Part shown: one piece after another, positions 977-40,181 of the stretch
Numbering within the stretch: position 1 is the stretch's first letter
How the letters are laid out: every line of letters starts with the position of its first letter
The notes under the pieces: model-generated
The model's input: only the letters and a program-made list of their open reading frames with translations
Databases searched by the model: none
Told to the model about the DNA's origin: nothing
Position numbers and translations under genes: made by a program
Assembly (NCBI GenBank): GCA_021890795.1
Contig: JAKKUO010000018.1
Location: forward strand, 1 to 40,329
DNA from: Bacillota bacterium
Lineage (GTDB): Bacteria > Bacillota > Sulfobacillia > Symbiobacteriales > ZC4RG38
DNA: 40,329 bases
Reading direction: 5' to 3'

Positions 977-1297
977 GGGGCGGGGCAGGGGAGCCGGACC
1001 CCGGAAAAGGGGCCGGGCGAAGCGGACGTCGATGGACTGTACCCCTTCCACCACCCCGGCATCCAGGCCGCAGACCACCGCGGGACGGCCTGACAGCCGG
1101 TTGAGGTTGACGGTGTGGCTGAAGAGGGTGGCCACCACCTGACCGCTCGAGCCGAGCAGCCGGTGGGTGCCCGGGAGGGGGATCCCAACCTCGGGAGCCG
1201 GCACCACGGTGCCGATCCGGCAGAGGGGAGGCGTGAACGGGTACCGGGGCCGCCGGGGCCAGGGGACACCCGGTGGAGTGCTGGGCGGCAGACGCAT
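968..1297 (-). CDS. Small hypothetical protein, 109 residues
   Basis: The ATG at 1297 is preceded by GGGAGGGAAAGGG, a strong ribosome binding site, which separates this frame from the many antisense frames in this GC-rich DNA. The N-terminal 35 residues are Pro/Arg rich. The remainder looks like a folded beta/alpha sequence (for example VGIPLPGTHRLLG, VVATLFSHTVNLNRL, and AVVCGLDAGVVEGVQSIDV). No known domain is recognised. It is transcribed away from the metG T-box leader, and a TTGACA on the minus strand (1411-1416) lies back-to-back with the metG -35. Its 3' end carries 21-bp tandem repeats containing the stop codon. The real start could be further inside, because the Pro-rich beginning is unusual. 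Confidence 0.5.
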   Translation of the reverse strand: MRLPPSTPPGVPWPRRPRYPFTPPLCRIGTVVPAPEVGIPLPGTHRLLGSSGQVVATLFSHTVNLNRLSGRPAVVCGLDAGVVEGVQSIDVRFARPLFRGPAPLPRPFD

Positions 1298-1410
1298 CCC
1301 TTTCCCTCCCGTTCCTGGGCAGGGTCCTGGTGTATGGTACGCTGCCGGAGGTGCTGGTGCCCGATCCCCGGTTCCTGGGGGGCTTGCGGAACCTACACTT
1401 TCGAATCGAC

Positions 1411-1448
1411 TGTCAACTCTTGACACCGGCCTTTTCCCTCGCTACAAT
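1411..1448 (+). promoter_or_regulatory. Consensus sigma-A promoter of the T-box/metG transcript, with palindromic -35
   Basis: TTGACA (1420-1425), a 17-base spacer and TACAAT (1443-1448) form a near-perfect housekeeping promoter. The -35 is half of a palindrome, TGTCAA-CTC-TTGACA (1411-1425), so a second -35 points the other way toward the 109-residue gene, although no good -10 was found for it. Confidence 0.85.
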
Positions 1449-1454
1449 TCCTCA

Positions 1455-1781
1455 CAACAGGCGATGACGGGGAGGAGTAGCGCCAGGAGGTGCCCCAGCG
1501 AGCCGGGGAGGGTGCGAGCCCGGCGGTGCCAAGCGGCGTGAAGATGGCCCCGGAGCTTCCGGTCGAAGGCTCTGCTCCGGACTTGCCCCGCAGCGGCGCG
1601 GGGACGGGGGCGGGCTGTGTAGGCCAGGACGGGTGGCCTCCGTTACCAGGGCCAGGGTATTGAGGGCCCGCTGCGGCCTGCGTACCCGCCGAGGCTTCCC
1701 GCCGCGAGGCGGGAGCGAACCAGGGTGGTACCACGGGAGCGTCTTGCCCCCGTCCCTGACCGGGACGGGGGCTTTGTGGTT
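1455..1781 (+). promoter_or_regulatory. T-box riboswitch (methionyl-tRNA sensing) upstream of metG
   Basis: The invariant T-box AGGGTGGTACCACGG is at 1722-1736, preceded by a stem III hairpin (CCCGCC/GGCGGG, 1698-1713). Stem I features are visible downstream of the promoter: GGGGAGGAGTA near 1469-1480, a GGGAGGGTGCGAGCCC segment near 1505-1521, and a specifier-type segment GTGAAG-ATG-GCC with the Met codon at 1544-1546. T-box leaders pair with uncharged tRNA through the specifier and the T-box bulge, and then prevent formation of the terminator. Here the terminator is the hairpin at 1746-1772. An ATG specifier fits the downstream gene, methionyl-tRNA synthetase. Confidence 0.9.
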
Positions 1782-1786
1782 TTTTC
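1746..1786 (+). terminator. T-box-controlled intrinsic terminator
   Basis: A perfect 11-bp GC stem (1746-1756 with 1762-1772, 5-base loop) is followed by TTTGTGGTTTTTT. The T-box sequence just upstream can pair with the bulged antiterminator region in the alternative fold. Confidence 0.9.
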
Positions 1787-1839
1787 CGGCCCTTGCCCAC
1801 GAGGCTCTTGCCCACGATGGAGGACGGGAGGGGAACCCG

Positions 1840-3426
1840 ATGGGGGAGCGGTTCTATATCACCACCCCGATCTATTACCCGAGCGACAACCTGCACCTCG
1901 GTCACGCCTACACCACGGTGGCGGCCGACGCCCTGGCCCGGTACTACCGACAGCGGGGGTACGAGACCTGGTTCCTGACCGGCACCGACGAGCACGGCCA
2001 GAGGATCGAGCGCAGGGCGGCGGAGGCCGGCAAGACCCCGAAGGAGTTCGTGGACGGGATTGTCGCTGGCATCCGGGAGCTGTGGCGGGAACTCCACATC
2101 TCCTGCGACGACTTCATCCGCACCTCCGAGCCCCGGCATGAGAAGGTGGTCCAGGCCATCTTCACCCGGCTCTACGAGCAGGGGGACATCTACAAGTCCG
2201 AGTACGTGGGCTGGTACTGCACCCCCTGCGAGACCTTCTGGCTGGAGTCCAAGCTGAAGGAGGGGCGGCTCTGCCCCGACTGCGGCCGGCCGGTAGAGCT
2301 GACCCGGGAGGAGAGCTACAAGTTCCGGCTCTCCAAGTACGAGGATCAGCTCCTCCGGTATATCGAGGAGCACCCGGACTTCATCCAGCCCGAGTCCCGG
2401 CGGAACGAGATGACCAACTTCATCAAGCAGGGGCTGGAGGACCTCGCCGTCACCCGGACCACCGTCAAGTGGGGCATCCCGGTGCCCTTTGACCCCAAGC
2501 ACACCATCTACGTCTGGCTCGACGCCCTCTCCAACTATATCTCGGCCCTGGGGTACGGGACCGAGGACGACACCCTCTTCCGGAAATTCTGGCCCGCGGA
2601 CGTGCACCTGATGGGCAAGGAGATCGTCCGGTTCCATGCGATCATCTGGCCCATCATCCTCCTGGCCCTGGGGCTGCCGCTGCCCAAGAAGGTCTTCGGC
2701 CACGGCTGGCTGCTGTACGGCAAGGCCGGGGAGAAGATGAGCAAGTCCCGGGGCAACGTGGTGGACCCCCGGGAGCTGATCCGGCGCTACGGGGTGGACG
2801 CGGTCCGGTACTACCTCCTCCGGGAGGTGCCCTTCGGGGCCGACGGCACCTACACCGAGGAGCAGCTGATCCTCCGCACCAACGTGGACCTGGCCAACGA
2901 CCTGGGCAACCTCCTGAGCCGCACCACCCAGATGATCAACAAGTTTGCCGGCGGCCGGGTGCCCGCGCCGGTCCCCGCCGTGGACGACGGGATCCTCCAG
3001 GCCGCGGTGGCCGAGGCCCTGGCGGGGATGACCGCGGCGATGGACCGGCTGGAGATCTCCGACGCCCTCGCCTCCCTGTGGAAGGCGGTGGCCCGGGCGA
3101 ACAAGTATATCGATGAGCAGGCGCCCTGGGCCCTGGCCCGGGACCCGGCCCAGGCGGACCGGCTGGCCACGGTGCTCTACAACCTGGCGGAGGCCCAGCG
3201 GATCCTGGCGGTCGCCCTGACCCCCTTCCTGGTGGAGACGCCGGAGAAGATCTGGGACCAGCTGGGGCTGGACCCGACGGGGGTCCGCACCCAGCCCTGG
3301 GAGGAGGCTGTCGCGTGGGGCGGCCTGCCGCCCGGGACGGCGATCCGCCGGGGGGCTCCCCTCTTCCCCCGCAACCCGATGCCCGGATCACGGCGGACTG
3401 GCCCGGCGCCAGCGGCGAACAGGTGA
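1840..3426 (+). CDS. metG: Methionyl-tRNA synthetase
   Basis: This enzyme charges tRNA-Met with methionine in the cytoplasm. The 528-residue product shows the class I signatures HLGH (19-22) and KMSKS (299-303). A zinc knuckle has two CxxC pairs (C127/C130 and C145/C148). The order catalytic core, stem-contact fold, alpha-helical anticodon domain follows. The ATG at 1840 is placed behind GGACGGGAGGGG. The frame stays open to 1633, but that stretch is the T-box RNA. The protein ends soon after the LFPR motif that closes the core and lacks the C-terminal EMAP/Trbp111 tRNA-binding domain found in many long bacterial forms. Its last about 16 residues fall in a tandem DNA repeat (3392-3499) and are probably not functional. 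A tRNA-Met gene follows. Confidence 0.97.
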   Translation: MGERFYITTPIYYPSDNLHLGHAYTTVAADALARYYRQRGYETWFLTGTDEHGQRIERRAAEAGKTPKEFVDGIVAGIRELWRELHISCDDFIRTSEPRHEKVVQAIFTRLYEQGDIYKSEYVGWYCTPCETFWLESKLKEGRLCPDCGRPVELTREESYKFRLSKYEDQLLRYIEEHPDFIQPESRRNEMTNFIKQGLEDLAVTRTTVKWGIPVPFDPKHTIYVWLDALSNYISALGYGTEDDTLFRKFWPADVHLMGKEIVRFHAIIWPIILLALGLPLPKKVFGHGWLLYGKAGEKMSKSRGNVVDPRELIRRYGVDAVRYYLLREVPFGADGTYTEEQLILRTNVDLANDLGNLLSRTTQMINKFAGGRVPAPVPAVDDGILQAAVAEALAGMTAAMDRLEISDALASLWKAVARANKYIDEQAPWALARDPAQADRLATVLYNLAEAQRILAVALTPFLVETPEKIWDQLGLDPTGVRTQPWEEAVAWGGLPPGTAIRRGAPLFPRNPMPGSRRTGPAPAANR

Positions 3427-30170: not shown

Positions 30171-31583
30171 GTGGGGGCCCTGGGGGTCAACCAGAAGTAC
30201 CGGCGGCTGTTGCTCCTGGTCCTTGCCGGCGGGGTAGGGCTGGCGGCGCTGCTGATCCATCCCTGGGGGCAGTACCTGTCGGCCCTCTCTCTTCTGGTCG
30301 CGATCCTGGTGGGGGTGGAGGTTCTGCTGCACGTGGAGCCTCGGCCGGGGATCCCCTCCAGTGACGAACTGGAGCGGCTCTCGGCCTCCTTCGACACCAC
30401 CCTGCGGATCAGCGACGAGACCATGGCCTACATGCGCCAGGGGCTGAACGAGGAGTCGGCGCAGAAGATCACCGACATCATGAAGTCCATCCTCGAGGTG
30501 GATGCCGTCGCCATCACCGACACGGAGAAGATCCTGGGCTTCAGCGGCGTTGGCTGCCGGCGGCACCGGCAAGGGGGGCCGATCCTCACCGGCGCGACCC
30601 GGGAGGTCCTCCAGACCGGCCAGCCCAAGGTGGTGGTGGACCCCCGGCTCCTGGCCTGTGACGAGCCCGGGTGTCCCCACCCCCTGAAGTCGTCGGTCAT
30701 CGCCCCCTTGAAGTTCCGGGACCAGGTGGTGGGGACTTTCAAGCTCTACAGCACCTCTCCCCGGCCCCTGCCGCCCCATGTGGCCCGGCTGGCGGTGGGG
30801 ATCGCCCAGCTCCTCAGCCTGCAGATGGAGCTGGCCGAGGCGGATCGGCAGCGGCAGCTCGCGACCAAGGCCCGGCTGGAGGCCCTCCAGGCCCAGATCC
30901 GGCCGCACTTCCTGTTCAACGTGCTGAACACCATCATCCACTTCAGCCGCACCGACGTGGAGCGGGCCCGGGAGATGCTGGTGCAGCTCGCCAACTTCTT
31001 CCGCCGGTCCCTCAGTTACCGGGGGAACTTCATCACCCTCCAGGAGGAGATCGAGTATATCAATACCTACCTCAGCCTGGAGAAGGCCCGGTTCGGGGAG
31101 AAGCTGACGGTGCAGATGAAGCTCGACCCCAAGGCCCTCGCGGTCTCCATCCCCATTCTGACCATTCAGCCTCTGGTGGAGAACGCGGTGGTCCACGGCA
31201 TCGCCCCCAAGGAGGAGGGGGGCAAGGTCGGGGTCCGGGTCCGCCGGGTTCGGAACGAGATCCAGATCCTGGTGGCAGACTCCGGGGTGGGCATGGACCG
31301 GGAGACCCTCCGCCGGGTCTTCCAGGAGGGCTACGCTACCGGCATGGGCCTCGGCATTTCCAACGTCAACGACCGGCTGGTGAGCCTCTATGGGCCGGAG
31401 TACGGCCTCCGGATCCGGAGCAGTCCCGGCCGGGGCACCGTGGTCCGGTTGCGGATCCCCCTGGCCGGCGGGGCGGCCGGGCGGCCGGAGGCCGGGCAGG
31501 GCCAGGGATTGAGCCGCAGCGGAGACCGTGGGGCCGTGGCACCGGCCGGCGCCGGTGCCTACCTGGAGGGCCCGGGGGATTAG
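30171..31583 (+). CDS. LytS-type sensor histidine kinase
   Basis: The 470-residue membrane kinase has two N-terminal helices (about 12-29 and 35-54) instead of the five-helix LytS sensor. A GAF-type domain (about 80-220) retains the family's conserved Cys-rich segment (LLACDEPGCPHPLKSS) and GVGCRRHRQGG. The phospho-acceptor is His246 in QIRPHFLFN, and the HATPase domain has N338 and DSGVGM. The last about 40 residues are Gly/Ala/Arg low complexity with no domain. A GTG start at 30171 abuts AGGGG and follows the hpt stop by 3 bases. The likely partner is the LytTR regulator at 32903, separated by one opposite-strand gene. Ligand unknown. Confidence 0.92.
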   Translation: MGALGVNQKYRRLLLLVLAGGVGLAALLIHPWGQYLSALSLLVAILVGVEVLLHVEPRPGIPSSDELERLSASFDTTLRISDETMAYMRQGLNEESAQKITDIMKSILEVDAVAITDTEKILGFSGVGCRRHRQGGPILTGATREVLQTGQPKVVVDPRLLACDEPGCPHPLKSSVIAPLKFRDQVVGTFKLYSTSPRPLPPHVARLAVGIAQLLSLQMELAEADRQRQLATKARLEALQAQIRPHFLFNVLNTIIHFSRTDVERAREMLVQLANFFRRSLSYRGNFITLQEEIEYINTYLSLEKARFGEKLTVQMKLDPKALAVSIPILTIQPLVENAVVHGIAPKEEGGKVGVRVRRVRNEIQILVADSGVGMDRETLRRVFQEGYATGMGLGISNVNDRLVSLYGPEYGLRIRSSPGRGTVVRLRIPLAGGAAGRPEAGQGQGLSRSGDRGAVAPAGAGAYLEGPGD

Positions 31584-31601
31584 ACCCGCCGGAGACGGCT
31601 A

Positions 31602-31630
31602 CGGGCCGCAGGTCATCGACCTGCGGCCCG
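31602..31630. terminator. Bidirectional terminator between kinase and diguanylate cyclase genes
   Basis: CGGGCCGCAGGT/ACCTGCGGCCCG is a perfect 12-bp stem with loop CATCG between two convergent genes. Confidence 0.75.
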
Positions 31631-31644
31631 CCGTGAAACGCCCC

Positions 31645-32733
31645 CTACCGCCGGGGAGCCTGCCACCAGGTGTAAGGGGACTGGGACGGCATCCAGGTGC
31701 CGCCCGGAGGGGCTCCGGGGGCCGCCGCAAGGCAGCACTGGTTCTTCCCCCGGGACTTGGCCCGCCGCAGCGCCCGGTCCGCCGCCTCCAGGAGTTGCCG
31801 GGGGCTGGTGCCGTGGTCGGGGAAGGCGGCGATCCCCGCGCTGAGGGTGACGTAGATGGGATGGGGACACCCCGGGCAGGTGAAGGGGTGCCGAGCCACG
31901 GTCTGGCGGATCCGCTCCGCCCGCTCCAGGGCGGCCCGGGAGTCCGCCCCCCGGAGGAGCAGGGTGAACTCCTCGCCGCCGTACCGGGCCAGAAAATCCT
32001 CCGGCTGGAGCAAGGAGGCCAGGAGGTCCGCCACCTGCTGCAGGACCGTGTCTGCCCCGGGGTGGCCGATGGTGGCGTTCAGGTGCTTGAAATCGTCCAC
32101 GTCCAGGAAGGCCACCGCCAGGGGCTGGCCGGTGGCCCGGGCATGCTCCAGGGCCTGCAGGAGCCGGGCGTGGAAGGCCCGGAAGTTCGGCAGGTGGGTC
32201 TTGAAGTCCGTGAGGGCCCAGGACCGGGCCTGCCGCTCCCGGCCGGACAGGATGCCGACCACCCCGCCGAGGAGGACCAGGTACGCGCTGCGCAGGAAGG
32301 CCCGGCCCGTCAGGTCTCCTTGCACCAGGGCTACGGTGGACAGGTACGCCAGGGCGCATCCCAGGCTGACGGTGAGCCCGGCCCTGGGCCCGTGGATGAG
32401 GTTGGCCTGGGCGGCAATCAGGGGGTAAAAGTGGTAGGCGTCGGAGCGCAGACCCCCCCGTAGCCCGATGGCCAGGGTCACCACCGCGGCGTCGGCCAGA
32501 TAGACCAGCGCCCAGAGCCGGGACGGCCCCTCCCGGGGCTGGCGCCAGGTCTGCCGGAGCCGGAAGTAGAGGACTCCGGTGACCAGAGCGTAGGCCAGGA
32601 CCAGCAGGCTCTGGCGACCGGCCGGGCGGTAATCGCTGACCAGCGGCAGCAGGGCCACGACCGGAATGAGCAGAATCCGTATCAGCAACAGTACCAGTTC
32701 GGCGGCCCGGGGATGGGACCACAGGCTGTTCAT
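31645..32733 (-). CDS. Membrane diguanylate cyclase (GGDEF domain)
   Basis: The 362-residue protein has about six N-terminal helices (residues 10-165) and a GGDEF domain (about 175-335) with an intact GGEEF signature (252-256), so it should make cyclic di-GMP. The inhibitory I-site position reads QPED instead of RxxD, so product inhibition may be lost. A CxxC (CPGC) is inserted after HPFT. The ATG at 32733 follows GAGGGAGGA; an alternative ATG 15 bases earlier is possible. It lies between the LytS-type kinase and LytTR genes on the other strand, starting 170 bp from the LytTR start. Confidence 0.92.
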   Translation of the reverse strand: MNSLWSHPRAAELVLLLIRILLIPVVALLPLVSDYRPAGRQSLLVLAYALVTGVLYFRLRQTWRQPREGPSRLWALVYLADAAVVTLAIGLRGGLRSDAYHFYPLIAAQANLIHGPRAGLTVSLGCALAYLSTVALVQGDLTGRAFLRSAYLVLLGGVVGILSGRERQARSWALTDFKTHLPNFRAFHARLLQALEHARATGQPLAVAFLDVDDFKHLNATIGHPGADTVLQQVADLLASLLQPEDFLARYGGEEFTLLLRGADSRAALERAERIRQTVARHPFTCPGCPHPIYVTLSAGIAAFPDHGTSPRQLLEAADRALRRAKSRGKNQCCLAAAPGAPPGGTWMPSQSPYTWWQAPRR

Positions 32734-32902
32734 GGGTTCCTCCCTCATAGCCGGTCACCTTCCGCCGGCGGTGGTGTCTTGCCGGGGCACGGCGGACGGC
32801 GGCCCCGGCCCGGCGGGCCGGGCGAGGACCGGTGCGCCGCCCGGCAGGGGTGGGCGCTGCTCGCAATACGGTGCTGGTGACTTCTCGTTGCAAGGGAGCG
32901 GA

Positions 32903-33676
32903 ATGCCGGTGGTGCTGAAGGCGCTGATCGTCGACGACGAGTATCCCGCCCGGATGGAACTCCGGTACATGTTGGAGAAGCATCCGGACGTGGAGATCAT
33001 CGGTGAGGCGACCAACGCCCGGGAGGCACTCCGACTGATCGAAGCCCTGGACTACGACGTGATCTTCCTCGACGTGCAGATGCCGGGCATGAGCGGGATC
33101 GACCTGGCGGCACAGTTGAAGAACCGCCCCGTCCCGCCGAAGGTGGTTTTCGTCACCGCTTACGAGCACTACGCCGTGCCGGCCTTTGCCCTTCGGGCCG
33201 TGGACTACCTGCTGAAGCCCTTCGACGACGAGCGGCTGGCGGAGACCATCCAGCGGCTCCGGGAGATGCACGGCGGGTCCGGGCAGGGGGAGGGGGACCG
33301 GGGGGAGCCGCCGGCCCGGGAGGGACGGAAGGGCCCGACCCTGAACTGGGTCCTCTGCGAGCGGGACGGACGGCAGATTCCGGTGCCCCTGGACGAGATC
33401 GTCTACATCTTCTCCGAGGGATACAACGTGTATGTACAGACCTACTCCGAGCGGCTCCTGACCCGGTACACCCTCCAGGAGCTGACCGAACGGTTGCCCG
33501 GCGACCAGTTCTTCCGCTGCCACCGGAGCTACCTGATCAACATCTACCAGGTGCGGGAGCTGAGCCCGTACTTCAACGGGGCTTACCTCCTGCGGATGAA
33601 GGACAAGAACCACAGCGAGGTGCCGGTCAGCCGGGCGAACGTCAAGCGCCTGAAGGAGCTTTTCTCCATGGACTGA
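32903..33676 (+). CDS. LytTR-family response regulator
   Basis: The 257-residue DNA-binding regulator has a receiver domain (1-120; acidic pair D11/D12, phospho-acceptor Asp57 in IFLDVQMPG, Lys in YLLKPFD). An acidic/Gly linker follows, then a LytTR domain (about 150-255: IVYIFSEGYNVYVQT, LPGDQFFRCHRSYLINI, VPVSRANVKRLKELF). The ATG at 32903 follows CAAGGGAGCGGA. The LytS-type kinase at 30171 is the obvious partner. No autoregulatory LytTR repeat could be picked out in the 170-bp gap before it. Confidence 0.95.
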   Translation: MPVVLKALIVDDEYPARMELRYMLEKHPDVEIIGEATNAREALRLIEALDYDVIFLDVQMPGMSGIDLAAQLKNRPVPPKVVFVTAYEHYAVPAFALRAVDYLLKPFDDERLAETIQRLREMHGGSGQGEGDRGEPPAREGRKGPTLNWVLCERDGRQIPVPLDEIVYIFSEGYNVYVQTYSERLLTRYTLQELTERLPGDQFFRCHRSYLINIYQVRELSPYFNGAYLLRMKDKNHSEVPVSRANVKRLKELFSMD

Positions 33677-34819: not shown

Positions 34820-35464
34820 TTACCGGAGGGTCCCCCGGATCAGGGCCAGGGCTTCCTTCCGGGCCACCTCGCTCTTCCGGAAGATCCCCCGCACCGCGGA
34901 GGTGACGGTGACGGCGCCGGGCTTGCGCACGCCCCGCATGGTCATGCACATGTGCTCCGCTTCCATCACCACCATGACCCCCATGGGCTGGAGCCGCTCC
35001 ATGATCAGGTCGGCCACCTGGCTGGTCAGCCGCTCCTGGAGCTGGGGCCGCCGGGCGTACTCCTCGACCACCCGGGCCAGCTTGGAAAGCCCCACCACCT
35101 TGCCCTTCCGGGGGATGTAGACCACGTGGGCCTTGCCGACGAAGGGCACCAGGTGGTGTTCGCAGATGGACTGGAAGGGGATGTCCTTGACGATGACCAT
35201 CTCCTCGTGGTCCTCGGAGAAGGTGACCTCCAGGTGCCGGGCCGGATCGACCCGTAGGCCGAGGGTTACCTCTTCAAAGTAGTCGGCGACCCGGCGGGGG
35301 GTATCCACCAGCCCCTCCCGGTCCGGGTCCTCGCCGATCGCTTCCAGGATCATGCGGACAGCGGCCTTGATCTTCTCCTTGTCCACCGGCCGGGGCTGTC
35401 CGTTCTCTGCCCGCCCGGGCATCAGGTTGTCCACCTGTCGGGGCTGTGGGTTCAGCTGCGCCAT
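34820..35464 (-). CDS. folE: GTP cyclohydrolase I
   Basis: This enzyme makes 7,8-dihydroneopterin triphosphate from GTP, the first step of folate biosynthesis. The 214-residue product has the zinc ligands of type IA enzymes: Cys101 and His in [10 protein letters not shown], and Cys173 in [19 protein letters not shown] and the C-terminal RKEALALI are also present. The ATG at 35464 follows AAGGAGG; a GTG at 35488 would overlap the upstream gene's TGA by four bases. It is cotranscribed with the DHPS-like gene. Confidence 0.96.
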
Positions 35465-35484: not shown

Positions 35485-36759
35485 TCACAACTCCAGCAGG
35501 CCCTCGATCTCCTGAAGGGCCGGGGCCAATTCAGGCCACTTGCAGGCGTCCGCCCGCAGGAAGGCGGCGCCCCCGCAGAGGGCTCTGGCGCTGGCCGCGG
35601 CCATCGCGGCCACCGGCCCCGGCCACGGGGAGAAGGCCACCGGTGGGCCGTAACTGGTCAGTTCCCGGAGCCGCCGGGTGAGGGTGCGGGCTGCCGGGCC
35701 CGGCGGCAGCCACGGGGCCGGGCCTGGGTCAAGGATGCAACGGCCGGGGCTGAGCCCTGCATCGAAAAGGGCGACGGTCACCTGCCAGGCTTGCCGGCCC
35801 AGGGCGGCCATCCCTTCTGTCCAGTCCTCCTCGTCCCGGCCCCGGGGGGTGTCCTGGGGCGGCGGCCCCTCGGGCATCGGCACCCCCGGGGGAACCGGCA
35901 GCCCCACCCACAGGTACCCGCCCGCGGCCTCCACCAGAGGGGCGAGGTCCGGGGCGAGGCCGGCCTCGGTCCGGAGGATGTCCGCCCCCCCGGCCAGGGC
36001 CTGCCGGGCCTCTTCCGGGTTGCGGACGGGAACAGCGAGGAGCCGGTCGGGCCAGGCCGGCCGCAGGGCCGCCAGGGCGGCCAGGCCCCCCTCCGCCGGC
36101 GGCGTTCCCAGTTCCAGGACGATGACGCCGGCGGCCGCCGCCACCCGCGCCGCCTCCTGTACCTCTTCCAGACTGGCGCCAGGGGCCGGCAGGACCGCCA
36201 CCCCCCAGACCCGGCGGCCGAAGTCCCAGCGCAGGTCGGGCAGCCGGGCCGGCGGCAGCAGTTCGGGCACCCCGCGGGCCCGGCCCCCGTCCCCCAGGGG
36301 GATGCGGCCGCCGTGGAGGTCGTCCAGGGTCTCTTCCACCACTTGCCCCTGACGGGCGGGCTGCCGGGCCACCGGCAGGTACCCGGGGACGGTGCGGATC
36401 AGCACCCCCTGCAGGGCGTCGGCGAACTCCGGCAGATGGTAGACGGTCTGCCGGTAGAGCTTGGCGATCAGGCTCCGGAGGGTGACCAGGTTGCCGATGA
36501 CGATGACATCCACCTCGTCCGCGGCGAAGTCGGCGCACGACCAGGGGGTGGCCAGGTCCCCGCCCCGGGCCAGGATCTCCTGCTTGATGATGTTGGCGGC
36601 CTTGGTGGGTACCCGCTCCACCAGGATGGCCAGGGAGACCCCCTTGGGGGCCATCAGGGGGATACCGCCCCGGTCCACCTCGATCCGCCGCATCTCCCGG
36701 GCGAGTGCGGCGATGGACCGGCGGTCGAGCAGTCGGGCATGAAACCGGGTACCTGACAT
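35485..36759 (-). CDS. Dihydropteroate synthase-like protein with degenerate catalytic domain
   Basis: The 424-residue protein has an N-terminal domain (about 5-115) like the extension found on DHPS of Clostridia and Thermotogae ([39 protein letters not shown]). The C-terminal 240 residues are in the right place and length for a DHPS TIM barrel. Where DHPS has NVTPDSFSDGG this reads [19 protein letters not shown] becomes [11 protein letters not shown]; the SRK loop reads FSPWPG; and RxHD is not found. Catalysis is therefore doubtful. Overlap of its TGA with a folE GTG and shared promoter tie it to folate. The ATG at 36759 is served by GGTGGGAGG; a GTG at 36789 lacks a site. Confidence 0.7.
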
Positions 36760-37215: not shown

Positions 37216-37665
37216 ATGTTCGTCCGGTATTTTACGCTGGCAGAGGCCAACGCCTGCATTCCGGAGCTTGAGCGGATCATCCGGCACCTGCAGTCCCTGC
37301 TCTCGGAGATGGAAGAGAAGCTGAACCGGCTACGGGAGGAGAAGGAGCGGGCCCGGAAGGCGGGGGTGCGGGTGGATGCTTCTACCTTCTTTGCCCAGGA
37401 GGCAGAACTGGACTTCCTGAAGCTGGAGGCCCAGAGCCACATCAACCGGATCAAGGAGATGGGCGCGGTGCTCCAGGACATCCACAGCGGCCTGGTGGAC
37501 TTCCCGGCGCTGGTGGATGGCCAGGAGGTTCTGCTCTGCTGGCGGCTCGGCGAGCCGTCCGTCCAGTACTATCACGGCCTGACGGAAGGGTTTGTCGGCC
37601 GCAAGCCCGTCCCGCCGGAGTGGCTGAAGGAGTCTCCCCCCGGCCAGCCCGGTGCCCAGGGGTAA
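37216..37665 (+). CDS. DUF2203 family protein
   Basis: The 149-residue cytoplasmic protein has an N-terminal helical half (FTLAEANACIPELERIIRHL, then a charged coiled-coil-like helix to about residue 90). A compact C-terminal half carries the family hallmarks GLVDFPALVDGQEVLLCWRLGE and YYHGLTEGFVGRKP. The function of the family is unknown. The ATG at 37216 is preceded by GGTAGGGCGGGG; an ATG five bases earlier is out of frame. Two strong promoters upstream suggest high or dual control. Confidence 0.88.
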   Translation: MFVRYFTLAEANACIPELERIIRHLQSLLSEMEEKLNRLREEKERARKAGVRVDASTFFAQEAELDFLKLEAQSHINRIKEMGAVLQDIHSGLVDFPALVDGQEVLLCWRLGEPSVQYYHGLTEGFVGRKPVPPEWLKESPPGQPGAQG

Positions 37666-39203: not shown

Positions 39204-40181
39204 ATGCATGAGGTTGCCATCATCGGTGCTGGCCCCTGCGGCCTGGCGGCTGCCCTGGCAGCCCACCGGGCGGGGCTGGATTACGTGGTGGTGGAGCAGG
39301 GCTCCATCGCCCACTCCATCACCCGTTACCCGGTGTTCATGACCTTCTTCAGCACCGCCGACCGGCTGGAGATCGGCGGCATCCCCCTGATCTCCCAGAG
39401 CCCGCGGCCGAGCCGGACCGAAGCCCTCACCTATTACCGGCGGATCGCCGAGAACTTCGGGCTGCGGGTCCGGCAGTGGGAGAAGGTGGTGGGGGCGGAG
39501 CGGCTGCCCGAGGGCTTCCGGCTCCGCACCCAGCACCGGGACGGCCGCCCGGACCAGGTGGAGGCCCGGAACCTGGTGGTCGCGACGGGATACTTTGACT
39601 CGCCGAACCTCCTGGGCGTGCCCGGGGAGGACGACCCCAACCTCTGCAGCCACCACTACACCGAGCCGGGGCCGTACTACGGCCTGCGGGTGGTGGTGGT
39701 GGGCGGCGGGAACTCCGCGGTGGAGGCGGCCCTGGACCTCTACCGCCACGGCGCCCGGCCGGTGCTGGTCCACCGGGGTCCCGACCTGAGCGAGAAGGTC
39801 AAGCCCTGGATCGTGCCGGAGATCCGGGCCCGGCTGGCGGACGGGTCGATCCCGGCCCACTTTAACACCGTGGTCCGGAAGATCGAGCCCGGTGCGGTTA
39901 CCCTGCAGCGGGACGAGACCGTCTGGCAGGAGCCCTGCGATTTCGTCTTCGCACTCACGGGCTACCGGCCGGATCACAGCCTGATCCGGTCCCTGGGGGT
40001 GGCCATCGACCCGGAGACCGGGGTGCCGCAGCACAACCCGGAGACCATGGAGACCAACGTCCCGGGCCTTTTCCTGGCTGGGGTGGTGGCCGCGGGCTAC
40101 GATGCCAACAAGATCTTCATCGAGAACGGGCGGGAGCACGGCGAGCGGATCGTTCGCTGCCTGCTGGCCCGGCGGCAGTAG
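39204..40181 (+). CDS. ypdA: YpdA-family bacillithiol-disulfide reductase
   Basis: The 325-residue FAD/NADPH enzyme has the FAD loop GAGPCG (8-13), the NADPH loop VVVGGGNSAVEAAL near 165, and the late FAD motif NVPGLFLAGVVAAGYDANKIFIENGR. The Cys in GAGPCG is the family's active-site residue near the flavin. It lacks the CxxC of thioredoxin reductases. In Bacillus and Staphylococcus it reduces bacillithiol disulfide, so its presence suggests bacillithiol is made by this organism. The ATG at 39204 has a weak GAGGAG upstream. It ends in a strong terminator. Confidence 0.93.
   Translation: MHEVAIIGAGPCGLAAALAAHRAGLDYVVVEQGSIAHSITRYPVFMTFFSTADRLEIGGIPLISQSPRPSRTEALTYYRRIAENFGLRVRQWEKVVGAERLPEGFRLRTQHRDGRPDQVEARNLVVATGYFDSPNLLGVPGEDDPNLCSHHYTEPGPYYGLRVVVVGGGNSAVEAALDLYRHGARPVLVHRGPDLSEKVKPWIVPEIRARLADGSIPAHFNTVVRKIEPGAVTLQRDETVWQEPCDFVFALTGYRPDHSLIRSLGVAIDPETGVPQHNPETMETNVPGLFLAGVVAAGYDANKIFIENGREHGERIVRCLLARRQ

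Follow-up and report, generated by a model that had tools for sequence, protein, structure and literature searches.

The gene at positions 35485 to 36759 of the 40,329-nucleotide stretch of DNA analysed here (the window) most probably encodes a formerly bifunctional FolP that has kept only its reductase half, a dihydropteroate/dihydrofolate reductase domain carried on a dead dihydropteroate synthase (DHPS) barrel. Judged by homology and by phylogenetic profile, the protein probably replaces dihydrofolate reductase (DHFR), which the bacterium appears to lack. The gene itself is real (Table 1). GGTGGGAGGGA stands upstream of its ATG, and a sequencing artefact or a frameshift is ruled out as the cause of its degenerate state, since the open reading frame is intact in four genomes. 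The ATG of folE lies behind AGGAGG, 20 nt downstream of the stop codon of the folP2-like gene, and the two genes are closely coupled in four genomes. The first-pass annotation had the gene closely preceding folE in a folate operon: the spacing bears this out, and the operon holds for folE but not for folP and the folB and folK look-alikes, which lie on another contig. In the related genome G003, DUF2203 and folE are adjacent with no folP2 between them, and in G004 one unrelated gene separates the two, folP2 being absent there. No Rfam elements were found near the folP2-like gene. Elsewhere in the window, genes for a histidine kinase (GAF, HATPase) and a LytTR response regulator flank a GGDEF protein gene of the opposite strand (30171-33676), and a pyridine nucleotide-disulphide oxidoreductase family protein (39204-40181; PF13738, 262 bits) may be a flavin reductase partner.

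Table 1. The folP2-like gene, its parts and its neighbours (positions of the window)
Feature	Position	Strand	Description	Basis
folP2-like gene	35485..36759	minus	ATG at 36759, stop at 35485; 424 aa; reductase-type N-terminal domain and degenerate DHPS barrel	open reading frame and orthologues
N-terminal domain	36394..36759	minus	residues 1-122; putative flavin-dependent dihydropteroate/dihydrofolate reductase	profile A2, dN/dS, Sulfurovum FolP homology, L013 model
Linker	36280..36393	minus	residues 123-160, TVPGYLPVA...RQG.VVEETL.DL.GGRIP	alignment
Degenerate DHPS (beta/alpha)8 barrel, predicted	35488..36207	minus	residues 185-424	motif table, AlphaFold model, Foldseek/VIA
folE	34820..35464	minus	GTP cyclohydrolase I	TIGR00063, 247.7 bits
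DUF2203 gene	37216..37665	plus	divergent; synteny marker	PF09969

Firstly, the C-terminal half of the protein is, as traced by sequence through intermediate orthologues, a relative of DHPS. Searches of Pfam and NCBIfam with the window protein returned no family at E≤1, hence neither Pterin_bind nor TIGR01496, by which a FolP would be recognised. It aligns with N-terminally extended FolP proteins (13-row alignment), and against canonical FolP gives E 0.008 over merely 42 residues. Its orthologues are 94% (G001, a sister species, with the same start), 57% (G002) and 47% (G007) identical to it. The G002 orthologue matches Pterin_bind at 2e-23 and is 34% identical to the intact canonical FolP in an alignment of 270 residues (E 7e-30). 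Against TIGR01496 (cut-off 162.6 bits), the genome's own canonical FolP scores 318.7 bits, the G007 orthologue 248.6 and the G002 orthologue 90.6, while the window protein gives no match. The catalytic set of DHPS comprises loop 1, loop 2, Asp96, Asn115, Lys221 and RxHD (E. coli numbering). This set, expected of a FolP, is not found in the window protein: its barrel is missing NVTPDSFSDGG (loop 1), GGESTRPG, SVD, IND, MH, GFGK, SRK and RVHD, and the remnants are LDPG and the R of RxHD only. The motif table thereby confirms the loss of NVTPDSFSDGG, GFGK, SRK and RxHD reported in the first-pass annotation, that R excepted. The same annotation held that orthologues with intact motifs would make this a local degeneration, which fits G007 in part: it retains several motifs, but its loop 1 is already altered to GATPDACSDDG and its SVD to SIN, with loss of the Asp. 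Most motifs are gone in G002 and nearly all in the window's own genome (G000) and in G001. Compared in this way, the orthologues are a stepwise decay series of the synthase half.

Modelled in full by AlphaFold (pLDDT 71, pTM 0.53), the protein has eight strand-helix units in residues 185-424, a predicted fold that is not independent of the homology described above, as the input alignment contained true DHPS sequences. Each of the 50 rows shown of a Foldseek search with the barrel is a DHPS, an HPPK-DHPS or the DHPS-like Rv1207, the best having E 2e-10, and VIA aligned 230 residues with Z 21.3 and rmsd 3.6. The barrel is thus predicted to have the (beta/alpha)8 fold of DHPS. A better match to another TIM-barrel family, which would have spoken against the first-pass assignment, was not found; such a family is ruled out by the 50 Foldseek rows shown and by the orthologue chain, and phmmer matches to KDPG aldolase and malate dehydrogenase (E 0.03-0.6) are weak and were judged to be chance. 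The first-pass annotation had also proposed a search for a canonical folP. Searching G000 with PF00809 gave a single gene, on contig C87 (G000:C87:17191; 286 bits), with all motifs present and followed by reading frames that resemble folB and folK (named by eye). Since this intact folP stands elsewhere in the genome, the folP2-like gene is not the DHPS of this cell. The loss of motifs, the canonical folP and the stepwise decay together mark the synthase half as a pseudoenzyme; for the whole protein, which is most probably a working reductase, that earlier label would not hold.

M. tuberculosis (Rv1207) and M. leprae (FolP2) likewise have an additional protein of the DHPS fold while an active folP stands elsewhere; according to a passage of PMC1971073, M. 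leprae FolP2 fails to complement an E. coli folP mutant. Rv1207 ranks with the best fold matches of the window barrel (VIA Z 20.9); in contrast to the window protein with its putative one, no N-terminal reductase domain is reported for these two proteins. A tree of 58 barrels, in which folP2 is represented by G002 and G007, places these two on very long branches and groups 8 of the 9 canonical folP of the order with the N-fused FolP L007 at 97/82. This grouping is suggestive only, and would fit a history in which folP1 lost the N-terminal domain and folP2 the synthase. G007 has three DHPS-type genes (L005, L023, L024) in a genome 77% complete, and one of them may be contamination. A Spirochaetes metagenome-assembled genome carries a second, apparently independent, degenerate N-domain FolP (L014, 5971-7188; TIGR01496 155.9 bits, below cut-off), with the usual loop 1 and SRK missing and no evident folate gene neighbourhood.

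Secondly, selection has kept the two halves very differently. The first-pass annotation had sought a function in the barrel, as a regulator or as an enzyme with a new pterin substrate, and had suggested checking whether the remaining charged residues are conserved among orthologues: across the four, 67 of 122 residues are invariant in the N-terminal domain versus 46 of 240 in the barrel, so that the conserved part is the N-terminal domain instead. The linker is invariant at 28 of its 38 residues in the same four proteins and mostly gapped in the other aligned FolP. Between the window and its sister species G001, the N-terminal 122 residues are 98% identical, with a dN/dS of 0.057 (95% interval 0-0.139) versus 0.280 (0.163-0.502) for the barrel; canonical folP (0.245) and folE (0.159) serve as references. 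Compared with G002, the values are 0.79 for the barrel, 0.32 for the N-terminal domain and 0.24 for canonical folP. The contrast is smaller with G007 (0.69 and 0.48) and absent between G002 and G007 (0.44 and 0.57), which puts the relaxed constraint on the barrel mainly on the side of the window.

These values bear on two other readings. That the protein is decaying as a whole, as a paralogue which the cell can do without and which has no current role, its N-terminal domain just decaying more slowly, would be in keeping with the graded decay of the barrel and with the lack of the gene from this locus in G003 and G004. We consider it highly unlikely, given an N-terminal dN/dS below those of folE and canonical folP of the same pair, a reading frame intact in all four genomes, and the fact that the lineages of the order without the gene all have folA, the gene being absent only where DHFR is present. 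A new pterin-related catalytic or regulatory role of the degenerate barrel, for example pterin binding to control FolE, is a quite unlikely reading. The barrel is not a free-running part of a pseudogene, since it is constrained between sister species, and purifying selection still acts on it, which a pure remnant need not show; the coupling to folE in four genomes and the intact predicted fold also point this way. Against such a role stand the loss of all catalytic motifs except LDPG and loop lengths that vary among orthologues; moreover, 83 of 216 barrel residues are identical between the window and G002, versus 94 of 122 in the N-terminal domain, and together with the dN/dS of 0.79 this leaves no shared barrel function evident across the family.

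Thirdly, the N-terminal domain is widespread and occurs without DHPS. Of 398 genomes sampled from the window's phylum, 221 match a profile of the domain (A2), and most of the matches listed lie in frames long enough for a DHPS barrel. All 64 fused frames examined, namely 40 that were fetched and 24 from the short loci L044-L070 (27 in all, three of them stand-alone), carry the domain before a barrel that keeps TPDSF. Strict motif patterns fail in 14 of them: 13 have variants (GGVS, GGIS, GGAS, GLGK, SNK and the like), and the remaining one, L066, is a fused frame broken within its contig by unread bases. Hence the domain, earlier described as of a DHPS type, is indeed the kind that precedes FolP in the fusions of this phylum. 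These proteins (TIGR01496 plus an unnamed 115-aa domain) have the same architecture as the window protein, but the TPDSF loop is lost in the latter and in its two closest relatives.

Among the matches listed, at least 23 are stand-alone frames of less than 200 aa. Within two genes of the domain, 11 of 20 stand-alone loci have fhs, 10 have a folate-family ECF transporter gene (folT) and 18 have either; L085 and L087 have neither nearby. DHPS scored above cut-off in 13 of the genomes of the 23 listed frames and was absent at that cut-off from the other 10, so that the domain must be more than an accessory of DHPS. From these neighbourhoods and from the genomes without DHPS, we conclude that the domain goes with reduced folate and not with DHPS as such. 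The stand-alone proteins tested against Pfam and NCBIfam matched no family, the domain sequence gave nothing credible against solved structures, and no copy was found in viral contigs or in phages. A passage in PMC3584212 reports a 'partial dihydropteroate synthase' near fhs, there without a reductase reading. In L013, L071 and L072, the stand-alone gene lies between fhs and look-alikes (by eye) of methylmalonyl-CoA mutase and its chaperone. A fused N-domain FolP shares its short locus with fhs in L045, L046, L047, L054, L055, L066, L069, L070, L100, L103, L106, L111 and L123. L010 holds a 261-aa frame resembling two tandem N-terminal domains with no barrel (1129-1914, minus strand), which diverges from the gene of a FolP whose DHPS barrel is intact (1949-3157, plus strand; TIGR01496 303.8 bits).

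Fourthly, the domain is homologous to that of a FolP from the order of H. pylori, whose own FolP has a reported reductase activity. The FolP of H. pylori is described as a flavin-dependent dihydropteroate reductase fused to DHPS ('DHFR2'; Levin et al. 2007, as cited in PMC1971073), an account that also draws on parts of PMC10339729, and a section of PMC2474590 extends the H. pylori-type reading to Methylacidiphilum, which is without FolA. We made the link through the FolP of Sulfurovum mangrovi (L095), a member of the Campylobacterales, the order of H. pylori. Found in a search of a plasmid collection, this protein carries the domain (tblastn 1e-5, 36%), and hhalign relates the two N-terminal domains at 99.6%; K39, A55, N56, K59, Q60, G66 and L109 are common to all 19 N-domain sequences aligned. 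The neighbours of the Sulfurovum gene encode HobA (matched to the PDB) and DNA polymerase III delta', and we take the gene order in H. pylori to be hobA-holB-folP. Presumably the H. pylori protein also has the domain order of the window protein. Both have a homologous N-terminal domain of about 115 aa (via Sulfurovum mangrovi FolP), and the window's genome is likewise without folA; unlike in the H. pylori type, the active site of the DHPS half is lost in the window protein, and it is a second FolP that does the synthesis.

Finally, the domain exchanges with folA. In the window's order, the carriers of the gene (G000, G001, G002 and G007) have neither folA nor thyA (0/4) and all have a two-domain Thy1-family protein (4/4), versus profile matches to thyA and folA 2 nt apart in each of the non-carriers G003-G006 (4/4), which have no Thy1 (0/4). 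Profile searches found no folA or thyA in G000, an absence that, in an assembly of 103 contigs, rests on an estimated completeness of 100% and on agreement with the single-contig G002. The only RibD_C match in G000 lies in a long frame, which suggests that it is RibD. The two-domain Thy1-family proteins of G000, G001 and G002 (L136, L137, L138) have an unusual stretch, RHCRKVEF or RHSRKVDF, where ThyX has RHR; no other candidate for a thymidylate synthase was found in the three genomes. In the phylum sample, the domain is found in 221 genomes, folA in 72 and both in 9, versus 40 expected (Fisher p 8.5e-17, the test ignoring relatedness and both searches being taken to cover the same 398 genomes); 114 have neither. 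The genomes with both are G153, G191, G237, G245, G248, G262, G309, G335 and G396, the folA match of the last being weak and partial. The swap recurs within families: f68 has three genomes with the domain only, six with folA only and none with both, and it is also seen within f62, f86, f91, f138 and f156. The domain thus replaces folA in the phylogenetic profile.

The predicted fold offers a lead in the same direction. The AlphaFold model of a stand-alone homologue (L013; pLDDT 93, pTM 0.83) has ThyX as its top four VIA matches (Z 8.9, 8.8, 7.2 and 7.0; next 6.1 and 5.1), with rmsd about 4 over 107-111 residues; the best, 4fzb, covers 110 of 121 residues. Foldseek of this model against the PDB gave no match at E≤0.001. 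Among viral models, ThyX ranks third with a TM-score of 0.58, the highest among the rows shown, at a non-significant E. Like the domain on our reading, ThyX is flavin- and folate-dependent; unlike ThyX, the domain is much shorter, no sequence relation to ThyX was detected and no RHR-type flavin motif was seen. A comparison by hhalign showed no sequence kinship with the order's own ThyX-family proteins (0.4%), and neither the window protein nor its stand-alone homologues match Thy1 (PF02511) in Pfam. The ThyX-like fold is a lead and not a demonstration, and fits the reductase reading in that the best match is an enzyme that depends on flavin and folate. The same model has PII-like folds among its lower VIA matches (Z about 5-6), which, with the fhs and folT neighbourhood and the lack of a named family for the stand-alone proteins tested, would suit a folate-binding carrier or regulatory module for one-carbon enzymes. 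That the domain is such a module and not a reductase is unlikely: it would leave unexplained both why the domain and folA exclude each other across the order and the phylum and the reductase activity that a passage in PMC1971073 reports for the H. pylori fusion.

In the reductase reading, FolE, FolB, FolK and the C87 FolP would make dihydropteroate (folB and folK as read by eye). The N-terminal domain would bind a flavin which, once reduced, would turn dihydropteroate or dihydrofolate from the separate FolP and FolC into the tetrahydro form, as inferred from homology and profile. In the H. pylori enzyme, the flavin is reportedly FMN. With ThyX in place of ThyA, dihydrofolate is not regenerated, according to a passage in PMC9931769. 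As a ThyX-type enzyme does not oxidise tetrahydrofolate, a slow or low-capacity reductase would suffice. The synthase function would have decayed once a second folP made the synthase half redundant, and the barrel may have been kept as a structural scaffold, at a guess for dimerisation.

The first-pass annotation had singled out the gene as a candidate for a new protein function. The function is likely not new in kind: a dihydropteroate reductase is already in print, though poorly recognised, and the N-terminal domain matches the Helicobacter-type FolP, stands without DHPS near fhs and folT, and replaces folA. What we did not find in print, in the open-licence literature, is the uncoupled form, the stand-alone genes and the ThyX-like fold. 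More broadly, and with somewhat less than even confidence, we propose that this 115-residue domain, for which neither Pfam nor NCBIfam has a name, has a ThyX-like fold and acts by itself as a flavin-dependent reductase of dihydrofolate and dihydropteroate. It would be the working DHFR of much of the phylum, usually fused to FolP, sometimes encoded on its own beside fhs or folT, also in genomes that have no folP and salvage folate, and on a dead barrel in the window's family; ThyX and the reductase would then be two branches of one flavin-folate fold. If true, such a fold would connect the two enzymes of folate metabolism that take the place of the ThyA-FolA pair, and would fit the joint replacement of ThyA and FolA by a ThyX-family protein and the N-terminal domain.

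Bacteria without folA are often described as missing DHFR or as depending on others for folate, and a section of PMC11974145 infers help to a folA-lacking host. If the N-terminal domain is the reductase, many such genomes would be self-sufficient, and trimethoprim should have no effect on them, its target having been replaced. The window gene would then be a natural separation of functions, in which evolution has removed the synthase and kept the reductase, and it directs biochemical work to a minimal reductase and to small proteins that stand alone.
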